The notes under the pieces were generated by a model. The model was not told the DNA's origin. It saw only the letters and a program-made list of their open reading frames with translations, and made no database searches. From contig NZ_VBSP01000002.1 of NCBI RefSeq assembly GCF_005864045.1, positions 1 through 64,000 of the forward strand: a DNA stretch of 64,000 nucleotides, given 5' to 3'. Numbering within the stretch: the first letter of the stretch is position 1; each line of letters starts with the position of its first letter. This document shows positions 2,972 to 22,395 of this stretch, piece after piece. Both the position numbers and the translations under genes were made by a program. The DNA comes from Ruoffia tabacinasalis. Its GTDB lineage: Bacteria; Bacillota; Bacilli; Lactobacillales; Aerococcaceae.

Positions 2972-3165
2972 CAACACAGCACGCTCACCTACGTAGAGTT
3001 TGGGCAACCCTACAAGACAGTGATAGACTTATTCAATCTATCCCCAACATCAATTTGACATTTCGGCTAGCAATCCTTTCATCATTTCTGATTACTGATA
3101 TTACAAGCGGCCTCAATACTGTATTGTTCTCTTATTTAATTTACTTGAGATAGAGTAACGCAAAT
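2972..3165 (-). ncRNA. Lysine riboswitch (L-box) controlling yfcC-M20
   Basis: Read on the minus strand, this leader carries the conserved L-box blocks in the right order: CAAGTA near the 5' end, GATGAAAGG, GCCGAA (about 3062-3067), TTGGGG, a UAGAnTTGAATAAGTCTA hairpin, and ACTGTC (about 3016-3021). A P5-like hairpin (TTGTAGGG / CTCTACG) follows. A short P3 (ATGTC / GATGT) joins the GCCGAA and TTGGGG blocks. A rho-independent terminator then precedes yfcC. The blocks align by eye with the B. subtilis lysC and Thermotoga aptamers as I remember them. P1 pairing is imperfect by eye, so the outer ends are approximate. A TTGACA box at 3174-3179 may be the -35 of the promoter. Confidence 0.87.
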
Positions 3166-18030: not shown

Positions 18031-18075
18031 AATACGGCTTGAAATTCATTGAGAACTTCAAACCGTATTTTTTAT
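18031..18075. terminator. Terminator between the pseudogene and dapL
   Basis: A long hairpin with AATACGG-TTGAA / TTCAA-CCGTATT arms. The plus strand has a T6 tract after it, the minus strand only TTTATTT, so it works best for the plus strand. Confidence 0.7.
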
Positions 18076-19301
18076 TTATAATAAGTTTCGACGATTCTTT
18101 GAGTCGCTTCAACTGTATCTTCATATGTTCCAAAGGCAGTCAGGCGCATAAATCCTTCACCATTAGCCCCATAGCCAGAACCTGGTGTGATGACAACTTG
18201 ACTTTCCTGTAGTAATTCATCGAAATATTCCCAAGAAGATAAGTCTCTTGGTGTTTTCAACCAAATATATGGTGCATTTACCCCACCGTAGTGTTCAATC
18301 CTCGCATCATTGAAAGCATCAACCATATGCTGAGCATTACGTTGATAATATACAATATTATCCTTCAACTCTTTTTTAACTTCCGGTTCGAAAGTCGCTA
18401 ATGCCGCGCGTTGAATGATATATGAGGTACCGTTAAATTTCGTTGGTTGGCGACGCGTCCACATGGCATTCAATGATTGACCTTCAATCACAAGTTCTTT
18501 AGGTATGACAGTATAACCTATACGCATACCCGTGAAGCCCGCTGTCTTAGAAAAGCTACGCATTTCAATCACACATTGCTTAGCCCCCTCACATTCATAG
18601 ATGGAATGCGGGATATGATCATCTTGTATAAAGGCTTCATAAGCCCCATCAAAAATTATGACACTTTCATGCTCAATTGCATAGTCAACCCATTCTTGCA
18701 GTTGATCCTTCGTCATAGCGACACCCGTGGGATTATTCGGTGAACAAATATATATCACATCTGGCTGCTGTTCTTGGTCAAAATCTGGCACCGCTTGATA
18801 GTGATTATCGACCGTCATCGGAATCGTTATTAATTCAGACCAACTTTGACTCATATCATCATAATGTCCTAAGCGTCCCGCCATAACATTACTATCAATA
18901 TAAGTTGGATACGCCGGATCACCAATCGCAATCTTAGCTTCCAGACTAAATAACTCTTGAATGGCTCCTGCATCTGTCTTTGAACCATCTGATATAAATA
19001 ATTCATCTTCTGATAAATCAATATTCAATGTTTGATAACTATGCTCTATAATCGCTTGCTTAAGAAATGGATAGCCAGTACTTGGCCCATAGCCTTTGAA
19101 AGTTTTAGATTTCAATTGTTCTTGACCTGCTTGAGTCATTGCTTCAACCACTCCCCTTGGTAAAGGTTGAGTGACATCACCAATAGACAATTTGATAACT
19201 TCTGAGTCAGGATTGCCTTCTTTGAATGCTGAAACTTTCTCAGCAATATGATTAAATAAGTAATTCCCAGGTAAGCGATTAAAATTCGGATTTATTTTCA
19301 T
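18072..19301 (-). CDS. dapL: LL-diaminopimelate aminotransferase
   Basis: A 409-residue PLP enzyme that converts tetrahydrodipicolinate to LL-diaminopimelate in one step, using glutamate, for lysine and wall precursors. Seen: KLSIGDVTQPLP (37-48), FKGYGPSTGYPFL, ISDGSKTDAGAIQ, CSPNNPTGVAMT and the PLP lysine K252 in SFSKTAGFTGMRIGYT. These blocks are typical of DapL rather than general class I aminotransferases. The ribosome site is AAAGGAG. It is last in an operon after an SLC13 permease and chorismate mutase. DapL is uncommon in Lactobacillales, where the acetylated route is more usual. Confidence 0.9.
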   Translation of the reverse strand: MKINPNFNRLPGNYLFNHIAEKVSAFKEGNPDSEVIKLSIGDVTQPLPRGVVEAMTQAGQEQLKSKTFKGYGPSTGYPFLKQAIIEHSYQTLNIDLSEDELFISDGSKTDAGAIQELFSLEAKIAIGDPAYPTYIDSNVMAGRLGHYDDMSQSWSELITIPMTVDNHYQAVPDFDQEQQPDVIYICSPNNPTGVAMTKDQLQEWVDYAIEHESVIIFDGAYEAFIQDDHIPHSIYECEGAKQCVIEMRSFSKTAGFTGMRIGYTVIPKELVIEGQSLNAMWTRRQPTKFNGTSYIIQRAALATFEPEVKKELKDNIVYYQRNAQHMVDAFNDARIEHYGGVNAPYIWLKTPRDLSSWEYFDELLQESQVVITPGSGYGANGEGFMRLTAFGTYEDTVEATQRIVETYYK

Positions 19302-19325: not shown

Positions 19326-19601
19326 TTACGACTTTCTTTTACTCATCCATTCTTGTTGATGACCTCTGGAAATGCGCATAATGTTCTCATATAAATCGGC
19401 TAATTCACCTTTTAAAGAATCATCTTCTAAGTAACTTTGTACTTTCTCGATAACGACCGCTTCACGGCCACTATCTAAGATTTCCATATTGTTCTCTAAT
19501 TTAATTTCAGCTACTTCCTCAACCGTTTTCGTTCGTTCTTCAAATAACTTTACCAATTCGCGATCAATTCGGTCGATGGTTGCTCTTTGTTTTTCTAACA
19601 T
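19326..19601 (-). CDS. aroQ: Chorismate mutase, AroQ class
   Basis: A 91-residue all-helical protein that turns chorismate into prephenate for Phe/Tyr synthesis. Seen: an N-terminal helix IDRIDRELVKLFEERTKTVEEVAEIK with the usual Arg, Asp and Lys positions, then AREAVVIEKV-like GREAVVIEKVQSYL and a third helix LYENIMRISRGHQQEW. Length is typical of a free-standing mutase. It lies between the SLC13 gene (10 bases) and dapL (24 bases), with a GGAGG ribosome site, so it is co-transcribed. The link between aromatic and lysine genes in one unit is unusual. Confidence 0.88.
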   Translation of the reverse strand: MLEKQRATIDRIDRELVKLFEERTKTVEEVAEIKLENNMEILDSGREAVVIEKVQSYLEDDSLKGELADLYENIMRISRGHQQEWMSKRKS

Positions 19602-19611
19602 ATTATTCCTC

Positions 19612-21099
19612 CTATGATAATTGACTTAAAAATACGCTTCCTAATGTATATCCTACCAATACTGCACTTGCGGCACTCCATAATAATAAGTAAAAACCAT
19701 ATAATAAAGCATCTTTAGCTGTGGTCCAACCAGATCCAATTGAGATAGCAATATAAGGCATTGCCGGTGGTGTCATGTATGCGAGTGACGCCATGAATCC
19801 AATTAAACTCGCAACGACTGCCACGTTTATTGGTAAATCCACCTGTGAACCCGCAATTGTAATAACTATGGTTGTAACAACTGACACAGTTACTAAGTTT
19901 GATGAGAAATTTGTTTGCAAGGCTGCCCAAATGATGAAGACTAATACCATTAATAATGGTGATAAGCCAACTAACAGTGGTGTTAAGAATGATTCGATTA
20001 AAGTAATTACACCCATATCAGGATTCGATAAGAAGCTACCCAAAGTGAGTGTCACCGCTACGATCAGTAAGCTCGGCCAGAACACACCTTTAGAAATTCC
20101 CTCTTGTAACTTTACTAACGGCTTCCCATCAACATGAACCACTGCTAATGCTAAAGCACCAATCATAGGTGGAAAGGCAATTCCTGCTGATTTTAGAAAT
20201 GCTGCCACTCCAGGTAAGATAAAGCCTAATACTTCTGGTAATAACCATAAAGCAACAACCCCACCAAAGATCAGAACGACTGCTTTTTCCTTTTTATCCG
20301 CTTTTGGTAAATCTGATAATGAAGCAATCTCACCCAGTTTTACGTTAGATAAATCCATTCGCCAAATCCACTTTAGAGAGACTAAAAGAATTAAGAAAAT
20401 TGTTAAGCCTGCTGGCACTGCGAAACTCATATATTGACCATTCGTAATCGCCGTTCCGTAGGCCGTTTCATATAGCCCCATCGCAGTAATTGCGAACACG
20501 TGGTTAATAGGCGTCATCGCTGTTCCAATAGCTATTGAAGCATATAAGGCGACTAATAATTTCGAAGCTTGTTTATCCCCTTTTTCTAATCCGAATTGGG
20601 TCATAACCTCTTCATAGATTGGAAAGGCAATCATAAATAAGATCGTTGGTGAAACGAAAGTACTGATTAATAACATCACCGATAGAAAAGCAAAAACAAA
20701 TCTCCAAGGACTTACTTGAGCCCAAGCACTATTAATTGCCCATGCCGAAACACGCTTTAAAAATGATGTTTGTTCTAAGGCATGTGTCACTAAGAATGTA
20801 AAGAATAAAAAGACAAACGTTGTATTACCAAATGACTGCTGGAAAATTTGTCCATAAGTGACTTCAGGTAGAAAACCTAAACAAATTAAACATAAAATAC
20901 TTGGCCAATCAATGGCAACAAACAGCCACAATACCAAGCTACTAGCAAAAATAGCTAGAACTGAAAAAGTAACGGTTGGAATATTGAATAAACCAATTTG
21001 CATCGTTGAATTCAAAACAGCTAGAGCTAATATAAGTAAACTAATGACGATTGAGATAATCTCACTAGTTTTAAATCCTTTTGATATAGAATTTGACAT
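19612..21099 (-). CDS. SLC13/DASS family permease
   Basis: A 495-residue membrane protein with about 12-13 helices. It fits the divalent anion:sodium symporter (CitT/SdcS) and ArsB-like ion transporter fold: paired re-entrant regions with SPTILFMIAFPIYEEV and MTPPAMPYIAISIGSG, the latter like the second SNT-type hairpin. Substrates in the family are dicarboxylates, citrate or sulfate. Here the neighbours are chorismate mutase and dapL, so an aromatic-pathway acid or another amino-acid precursor is possible but unproven. It is first in the operon, behind an attenuator leader. The ribosome site is GGGGAG. Confidence 0.82.
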   Translation of the reverse strand: MSNSISKGFKTSEIISIVISLLILALAVLNSTMQIGLFNIPTVTFSVLAIFASSLVLWLFVAIDWPSILCLICLGFLPEVTYGQIFQQSFGNTTFVFLFFTFLVTHALEQTSFLKRVSAWAINSAWAQVSPWRFVFAFLSVMLLISTFVSPTILFMIAFPIYEEVMTQFGLEKGDKQASKLLVALYASIAIGTAMTPINHVFAITAMGLYETAYGTAITNGQYMSFAVPAGLTIFLILLVSLKWIWRMDLSNVKLGEIASLSDLPKADKKEKAVVLIFGGVVALWLLPEVLGFILPGVAAFLKSAGIAFPPMIGALALAVVHVDGKPLVKLQEGISKGVFWPSLLIVAVTLTLGSFLSNPDMGVITLIESFLTPLLVGLSPLLMVLVFIIWAALQTNFSSNLVTVSVVTTIVITIAGSQVDLPINVAVVASLIGFMASLAYMTPPAMPYIAISIGSGWTTAKDALLYGFYLLLWSAASAVLVGYTLGSVFLSQLS

Positions 21100-21131
21100 T
21101 GTTTACACTCCCCTTTTTTATAACTTTTCAA

Positions 21132-21165
21132 CAAAAAAACTGCTTAGCATAAACTAAGCAGTTCT
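21132..21165 (-). terminator. Attenuator terminator before the SLC13 operon
   Basis: On the minus strand a perfect 10-bp stem AACTGCTTAG / CTAAGCAGTT is followed by seven T, only about 30 bases before the SLC13 start codon. Its 5' strand can instead pair with 21191-21203. Confidence 0.93.
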
Positions 21166-21360
21166 CGAAACTGGCCATTTTAGGAGGTCCGCTTAATTTA
21201 TACTCTAAGCGGCCAAGACACAACAATATCAAGCCACCATAGATATGAACTTTCGTTATACGTTCATACTAGGTGGTATGAACGCTATCTAAAGTAGCTA
21301 AAATACATTGATTTTAATGTATGGGATAATTGTTGCATGTTCCTAACCTCATTTCTCTGT
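21166..21360 (-). ncRNA. Structured leader (candidate riboswitch) of the SLC13-aroQ-dapL operon
   Basis: The transcript starting near 21360 can fold into P1 (GCAACAAU, 21329-21336, with AUUGUUGU, 21220-21227). P1 encloses P2 (AUACAUU / AAUGUAU, 21303-21322) and P3 (9-bp stem 21261-21284 with loop CACCUA). The P3 loop can pair with GGUG(G) at 21234-21238, a pseudoknot. An anti-antiterminator hairpin (21189-21212) follows. Its segment 21191-21203 can form 13 pairs with the 5' arm of the terminator, so the two states exclude each other. I found none of the T-box, L-box, SAM, TPP, glycine, purine or cobalamin signature blocks. Confidence 0.7.
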
Positions 21361-21367
21361 TTCAAAC

Positions 21368-21396
21368 AGTATACCTGACTACTCACACGAAATCAA
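21368..21396 (-). promoter_or_regulatory. Sigma-A promoter of the SLC13 leader
   Basis: -35 TTGATT and -10 TATACT are exactly 17 bases apart on the minus strand, placing the transcript start near 21360, just before the structured leader. Confidence 0.8.
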
Positions 21397-21444
21397 CATC
21401 AAATTCTAATAATATTTTAATTTATATTATTTTCATTATTTATT

Positions 21445-22395
21445 CTATGAAGCTACTCCCACTGGAACTTCATCAGGCACTTCAATACTTTCATTAAAGA
21501 TTTTGTCAGTGACATTATAATTAAATTCTACTTGCAATGACTCTGGCATGTCCGGATCAGGTTCAGATGCTGAAGCTTCTTCGAGTGTTTGAACATCTGA
21601 ATCAACTATCACTTGAATCGCTGTAATAAAATAATCTTCATCCATTTCGACGGTAATTGTATAATTTAATCCATCAGCCAAAGCAATAGCTTGACCTTCA
21701 TAATTTTCAATTTGGTTACTAATCTCAACACCCGAATCCACTGTTTCTTGAGTCACAGTCATTCCTAACTCTTCTAAGGCTTCAAAGAATTCAATCCATT
21801 CTTCCTCTGTTTCGAAAGAGTTAATTGTGACAGTGTAGCCATTATCATGCTCTTCTACCGTCGTTTTCTCACTTAATAACTGATGCACCCTAGACGGAAT
21901 ATAATAACTACGAATTGATCCTTCGATGACTGATACAAGCATTTGATATTGAGTAGTAATTTGTTCCGCTGGCATACCGAGTACCGTAGTAAGGTCAGCA
22001 GTGACCCATTCACTTTCACCTTCTTTAGTAGAATCTTCTTCAAATGTGTACATTGTTTCATCGATGATATAATTTAGTAAGTGATATGTTTCATCCATTG
22101 TCGACCCATCGTTATGTTCAGCGTTCATCGTTGCGTCTAAATCAAAACCTACTTCAAGTTCGGGCGCTATCTTGACTTGAAGTCTTCCATCAACAGTGTA
22201 GTCCATCGTTCCTTCAGGATAAATTAAATCCATATTACCTTCAAAGTCACCTTTAAAAGATTCAATTTCTTTCAATCCATTAATCACATTTAACAAGACA
22301 TCATCTGGAGCAAGTTCTTGTGCTTTTGCCGGTAAGGGCCCCATAGTTAAGACAACTAATAAAGTAACAAGTATGACGTTTATTATTTTCTTCAT
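21445..22395 (-). CDS. Secreted DUF6612-like protein
   Basis: A 316-residue exported protein with a signal peptide (about 1-25, cleavage after AKA) and no lipobox cysteine. The mature part alternates beta strands and acidic helices: GLKEIESFKGDFEGNMDLIY, GRLQVKIAPELEVGFDLDAT, DETMYTFEEDS and NYTITVEMDEDYFITAIQV. This is the LolA/LppX-like half-barrel layout of DUF6612 proteins, which may bind a lipid or other hydrophobic ligand outside the membrane. Function is unknown. It stands alone between the SLC13 promoter and the ABC exporter terminator. Confidence 0.65.
   Translation of the reverse strand: MKKIINVILVTLLVVLTMGPLPAKAQELAPDDVLLNVINGLKEIESFKGDFEGNMDLIYPEGTMDYTVDGRLQVKIAPELEVGFDLDATMNAEHNDGSTMDETYHLLNYIIDETMYTFEEDSTKEGESEWVTADLTTVLGMPAEQITTQYQMLVSVIEGSIRSYYIPSRVHQLLSEKTTVEEHDNGYTVTINSFETEEEWIEFFEALEELGMTVTQETVDSGVEISNQIENYEGQAIALADGLNYTITVEMDEDYFITAIQVIVDSDVQTLEEASASEPDPDMPESLQVEFNYNVTDKIFNESIEVPDEVPVGVAS

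Follow-up and report, generated by a model that had tools for sequence, protein, structure and literature searches.

Classical leader-peptide attenuators, such as those of the E. coli trp, his and pheA operons, possess a short ORF in which codons for the regulated amino acid abound, and the position of the ribosome on this ORF sets the choice between terminator and antiterminator. Aromatic regulation in low-GC Gram-positives is reportedly treated in Panina 2003 (FEMS Microbiol Lett). Leader-peptide attenuation is also known in Firmicutes, with examples in the ilv leader Rli60 of Listeria (PMC5864092) and in the ilv attenuator of S. aureus (PMC5794164), and His leader-peptide attenuation has been proposed in bacilli and other bacteria (PMC2965389, PMC9413887). 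The Leu/phe leader (RF01743) is listed as a cis-regulatory leader RNA of Lactococcus (PMC2864571). Two further Rfam entries bear directly on the locus described here. The trpB motif (RF04312), with >900 representatives, was put forward by Narunsky et al. (2024) as a strong riboswitch candidate for which classic attenuation was not ruled out (PMC11109978). RF02863 is filed by Rfam as a free Enterococcus sRNA and derives from sRNA_2410 of E. faecium, which was described as a putative sRNA of 195 nt having two transcripts; the accessible part of the source paper mentions no leader ORF (PMC5593968). A literature search conducted largely without subscription papers found no prior account of the leader peptides described below.

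The leader RNA studied here lies on the minus strand of the window (the whole 64,000-nt stretch of Ruoffia tabacinasalis DNA analysed), with its terminator just 5' of an SLC13 gene. In order of transcription, its features are:

21368..21396, minus: putative sigma-70 promoter TTGATT-17-TATACT (consensus scan, by itself not above chance)
21347..21350, minus: Shine-Dalgarno GAGG of the leader ORF (from sequence; Shine-Dalgarno and ATG in nearly all relatives)
21285..21338, minus: leader ORF MQQLSHTLKSMYFSYFR-stop, with Tyr-Phe-Ser-Tyr-Phe codons directly before Arg-stop (ORF conserved in >200 relatives)
21285..21302, minus: segment A, the regulatory codons and stop, forming the P1 5' strand and pairing with B (A:B -15.7 kcal/mol; covariation)
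21261..21284, minus: segments 2 and 3, the hairpin right after the stop codon (covarying helix)
21230..21247, minus: segment B, the P1 3' strand, alternatively pairing with C (B:C -13.6 kcal/mol)
21205..21214, minus: segment C, 5' arm of the anti-antiterminator hairpin (sequence and folding)
21186..21203, minus: segment D, 3' arm of the C:D hairpin, alternatively pairing with the terminator 5' arm (antiterminator)
21130..21166, minus: segments E and F, the intrinsic terminator (folding; perfect terminator at about 21166-21135, followed by a T run)
19612..21099, minus: gene 1, SLC13/DASS-like sodium-coupled anion transporter (Pfam PF03600, PF00939)
19326..19601, minus: gene 2, chorismate mutase, aroQ (PF01817; TIGR01805 over cut-off)
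18072..19301, minus: gene 3, LL-diaminopimelate aminotransferase family, dapL (TIGR03542, 543.7 bits; cut-off 364.7)

The predicted minimum free energy of the leader is -62.5 kcal/mol, compared with -39.3 +/- 4.0 for shuffled sequences (z -5.9). P1 pairs 21302-21290 with 21245-21233; within it lie one strong hairpin (21284-21261) and a second, small one. The C:D hairpin spans about 21215-21186, separate from the P1 domain. An earlier note on this DNA had described P1, two enclosed hairpins, a further hairpin and a perfect terminator, and all were recovered in place on the minus strand. The explicit expression platform that it proposed is likewise present, comprising both the terminator and an alternative pairing; the 13 continuous pairs which it counted between 21203-21191 and the terminator 5' arm were computed as 12 consecutive pairs and three more (D:E -16.1 kcal/mol). 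Its promoter exists as a sequence, but the match is no better than chance, the consensus scan having found four promoter-like sites against 3.1 expected in this AT-rich stretch. Pairing of the loop CACCUA with GGUGG before the P1 3' strand is possible, although the suggested pseudoknot more plausibly belongs to an alternative helix in which the 3' arm and loop of the 21261..21284 hairpin pair with B (3:B -19.4 kcal/mol). The leader ORF, whose end is the P1 5' strand, had been overlooked.

Nothing in the leader reaches any Rfam gathering cut-off, which agrees with the earlier description of an attenuator outside the common classes and bearing no signature of common riboswitches or the T-box. 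The T-box (RF00230) was absent from the window at its gathering cut-off and from 20900-21600 at E up to 10, and the Leu/phe leader gave no match in 15 loci at E up to 0.5. Elsewhere in the window, a lysine riboswitch lies at 2972-3126 on the minus strand (60.5 bits; Rfam cut-off 30). Below the cut-offs, a full-length collinear match to RF02863 at 21301-21123 (43.9 bits, E 7.6e-6; gathering cut-off 61) had escaped the earlier note, and the scores of relatives grade continuously across this cut-off. In other Lactobacillales, RF02863 matches of up to 212 bits stand before TrpX-like transporters and share the FSYFR-stop ORF. The trpB motif scores 19.3 bits at the window and 43.0 bits for one relative (L043), both short of its gathering cut-off of 59. 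Upstream of TrpX transporters and of trpB, its loci display the same scaffold, with Trp-coded ORFs ending ...TWQNWRR-stop or WQSWHR-stop; the RF04312 model begins after the stop codon, leaving the ORF outside, and its loci often have one hairpin fewer.

The window ORF comprises 17 codons with a ribosome site and ends ...TAT TTT AGC TAC TTT AGA TAG. In relatives, the conserved 5' block ...TAC TTT AGC TAY TTT AGA TAG is the end of an ORF (...QLNNYYFSYFR-stop) with a good ribosome site. The start codon is ATG in 209 of 211 detected leaders, the peptides are mostly 15-26 residues long, and the stop codon is conserved yet varied (TAG 168, TAA 30, TGA 13). Across 93 diverged leaders of the Tyr/Phe type, substitutions at codons -8, -7, -6, -4 and -3 are almost entirely confined to TAT, TAC, TTT and TTC; codons upstream of the regulatory run carried no third-position coding signal in this set. 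A translatable leader ORF with a ribosome binding site, as expected of a ribosome-mediated attenuator, is thus present. In five leaders (L110, L112, L083, L143 and L147) no stop directly follows Arg any longer, and a new one occurs a few codons on (e.g. ...FRSCL-stop, ...FRCCL-stop).

The regulatory codons were compared with the downstream genes, checked by Pfam/NCBIfam, at 213 non-redundant leader loci. Aromatic operons (aro, pheA, chorismate mutase) were preceded by Tyr/Phe codons in 48/48 leaders and branched-chain genes (ilvA, ilvB, ilvE, livJ) by Ile/Leu/Val codons in 18/18, counts in which related loci are not independent. Leaders of trpB carry Trp codons and the hisZG leader His codons, one relative reading HHHHR before hisZ-hisG. 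Transporter leaders were assigned to Tyr/Phe in 105 cases and Trp in 20, and six could not be called automatically. When 83 transporter proteins were placed in a tree, those behind Trp-coded leaders grouped in a single clade of 19 rows (100/99) and Tyr/Phe-coded leaders were found elsewhere; here L171 counts as Tyr/Phe (peptide end FYSFSYFRVCL) and L219 is a mis-assigned protein. Tyr/Phe, Ile and Trp versions coexist within the R. tabacinasalis genome. Its ilvE copy encodes a peptide ending IISIIR-stop (isoleucine codons), a second Ile version (IISIIIR-stop; G000:C14:16901-16983, L137) precedes a livJ-like branched-chain amino acid binding protein, and a Trp version (IWQSWRR-stop; G000:C1:146759-146850, L132/L138) precedes a TrpX transporter. 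Thus, the codons match the amino acid of the controlled genes, as in ribosome-mediated attenuators. The same genome contains a weak RF04312 match (L127, G000:C19:27520) with an ORF ...SFWWSTTPSV-stop before an oligopeptide-binding protein, either a diverged variant or chance.

The A:B helix and the first hairpin covary, with double changes in 16 of 24 pairs and observed scores reached by 0/500 shuffles; in slid registers the covariation collapses. The earlier note had named a P1 whose position varies without compensation as evidence against its structure; this was not seen in relatives, where P1 covaries. The energy of each segment with its own partner was then set against that with swapped and shuffled partners in non-redundant leader sets. 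At the level of sequence, where the terminator is also evident, A:B, B:C and D:E stand above control, with own/swapped/shuffled values of -14.7/-10.8/-5.0 for A:B, -13.6/-11.2/-8.9 for B:C and -11.3/-7.9/-7.2 for D:E. Pairing of B with the terminator was at chance in two-hairpin leaders (-7.0/-7.3/-7.2) and strong in those with one hairpin, in which an arm of the terminator serves as C. These pairings give a chain of mutually exclusive helices, namely A:B, B:C, C:D, D:E and E:F in the long form and A:B, B:C and C:F in the short form.

We conclude that the window leader very probably acts as a leader-peptide attenuator, through which the translating ribosome would govern transcription in response to charged tRNA-Tyr and tRNA-Phe. 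In the proposed mechanism, the leader would be transcribed and its short ORF translated. When Tyr and Phe are plentiful, the ribosome would clear the ORF, allowing A:B (P1), C:D and the E:F terminator to form, and transcription would stop before the SLC13-chorismate mutase-dapL operon. Conversely, when Tyr- or Phe-tRNA is scarce, the ribosome would stall on the YFSYF codons and cover A; B:C would then form, D would be freed to pair as D:E, no terminator would arise and the operon would be read. In both the long and the short form, covering A would switch the operon on. Actual translation, stalling and read-through are what we infer from the leader.

The dependence of folding on the state of the ribosome was computed, with ribosome edges set by footprint and expected pairs averaged over 141 leaders. 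Predicted B:C and D:E amounted to 2.3 and 1.8 pairs with no ribosome, rose to 7.3 and 4.4-4.7 with a ribosome stalled on the Tyr/Phe codons, and returned to 2.6 and 2.0 with a ribosome at the stop codon, where B pairs instead with the first hairpin's 3' arm. This second sequestration of B explains the repeated GUUUGUAU block. Over the 141 leaders, exclusive terminator and antiterminator states are thus predicted to follow ribosome position. In the window leader, the stalled state yielded the antiterminator (D:E 8.9 pairs versus 2.5 without ribosome), whereas the off state with a ribosome at the stop codon was not reproduced, the leader folding as in the stalled state. Without a ribosome, a transcript truncated where C ends prefers B:C to A:B, in the window leader as well, so that the off state of the window leader depends on C:D winning later. 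A cruder block covering A and 6 nt produced no clean switch (6 up versus 7 down in the non-redundant set); the folding result therefore depends on the choice of footprint.

A conserved, covarying structure before a terminator would also be expected of a metabolite riboswitch. In such a reading the P1-enclosed domain, in which the earlier note saw a pseudoknot-like aptamer layout, would bind an aromatic compound; the related trpB motif has likewise been proposed as a strong candidate riboswitch, its authors leaving attenuation open (PMC11109978). However, the conserved 5' strand of P1 is coding, and its codons vary between paralogues and follow the regulated pathway on one and the same scaffold. 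Moreover, the loop sequences vary, and no invariant core outside the helices was seen. Given the ORF and the codon-gene match, the riboswitch reading was dropped as very improbable.

Matches to RF02863 were found in 215/395 sampled Lactobacillales genomes and 0/14 control genomes, with four copies in the R. tabacinasalis genome. A second covariance model (R1), built from 42 leaders, mostly Tyr/Phe, detected six copies in this genome, and matches in 54/76 genomes of the family and in 4/398 genomes phylum-wide, the R. tabacinasalis genome being counted among the four. Carriers include Streptococcus pneumoniae, S. mitis, Enterococcus alishanensis, Vagococcus, Granulicatella and Aliicoccus. The genes 3' of RF02863 relatives belong mostly to an ABC_sub_bind/TrpX-like transporter operon or to an aroE-aroF-aroB shikimate operon; others are pheA, aroC-tyrA and, in the R. 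tabacinasalis genome, ilvE. In Clostridium moniliforme, C. frigidicarnis and Eubacterium multiforme, the leader precedes a sodium-dependent SNF-type transporter. Three Tyr/Phe leaders (L084, L186, L231) are followed by very long proteins; a domain scan of that behind L084 showed several SBP_bac_3 domains. A Phe-coded leader (L196, ...VFFNSNFR-stop) is followed by a D-2-hydroxyacid dehydrogenase whose substrates may be aromatic 2-oxo acids.

This gene context bears on the filing of RF02863 as a trans-acting small RNA. In favour of that filing, a 195-nt RNA was detected by RNA-seq and Northern as two transcripts (PMC5593968). Yet the best RF02863 matches directly precede transporter genes and end in a terminator, so that the short RNA is most simply a terminated leader, and its conservation is explained without any conserved unpaired seed. 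A trans-acting sRNA in place of a leader is thus highly unlikely, although the RNA may have a side role in trans besides acting as a cis leader. Also very unlikely is a TnaC-like nascent-peptide sensor, in which the FSYFR peptide would arrest the ribosome in response to free Tyr/Phe and not to hungry codons: Arg is indeed kept before the stop in 184/211 leaders, but the conserved Arg-stop letters AGATA belong to the A:B helix, the Ile, Trp and His versions are quite different peptides, and 14 leaders read beyond Arg to a later stop with a C-terminal Leu.

The attenuator of the window is probably one member of a larger group. One ancestral scaffold is likely to have spread by duplication in Lactobacillales, with scattered occurrences in other Bacilli and Clostridium-like species, its codons being replaced to yield Tyr/Phe, Ile/Leu/Val, Trp and His versions; RF04312 and RF02863 would both be parts of it, and its short form (in which B pairs with the terminator itself) and long form (with the extra C:D hairpin) would both be starvation-on. 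Unlike classical attenuators, this leader forms a chain of six segments that includes an additional anti-antiterminator hairpin, and a single conserved scaffold serves four amino acid specificities. It resembles the T-box in that specificity is set by a codon and is modular across pathways in Firmicutes, and differs in relying on a translated ORF, not on tRNA binding, making it probably a translated counterpart of the T-box. The data are best explained by a new, re-programmable attenuator superfamily joining two Rfam entries previously read otherwise.

For R. tabacinasalis, this reading ties an orphan SLC13-chorismate mutase-dapL operon to Tyr/Phe supply. The genome contains adjacent prephenate dehydratase and dehydrogenase genes together with chorismate synthase. 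No DapD_Ac was detected over cut-off in this genome; DapL may therefore be the DAP aminotransferase route, perhaps the only one, and could possibly double as a putative aromatic aminotransferase. For the family, re-reading the trpB motif and the Enterococcus 'sRNA' as one group of translated attenuators means that searches for a ligand would probably be misdirected. The re-programmed attenuators form a natural series for studying how ribosome position is read out. Furthermore, the substrates of the transporters can be predicted from the codons: for the large TrpX-like clade found behind Tyr/Phe leaders, tyrosine/phenylalanine would be expected as the cargo rather than tryptophan.
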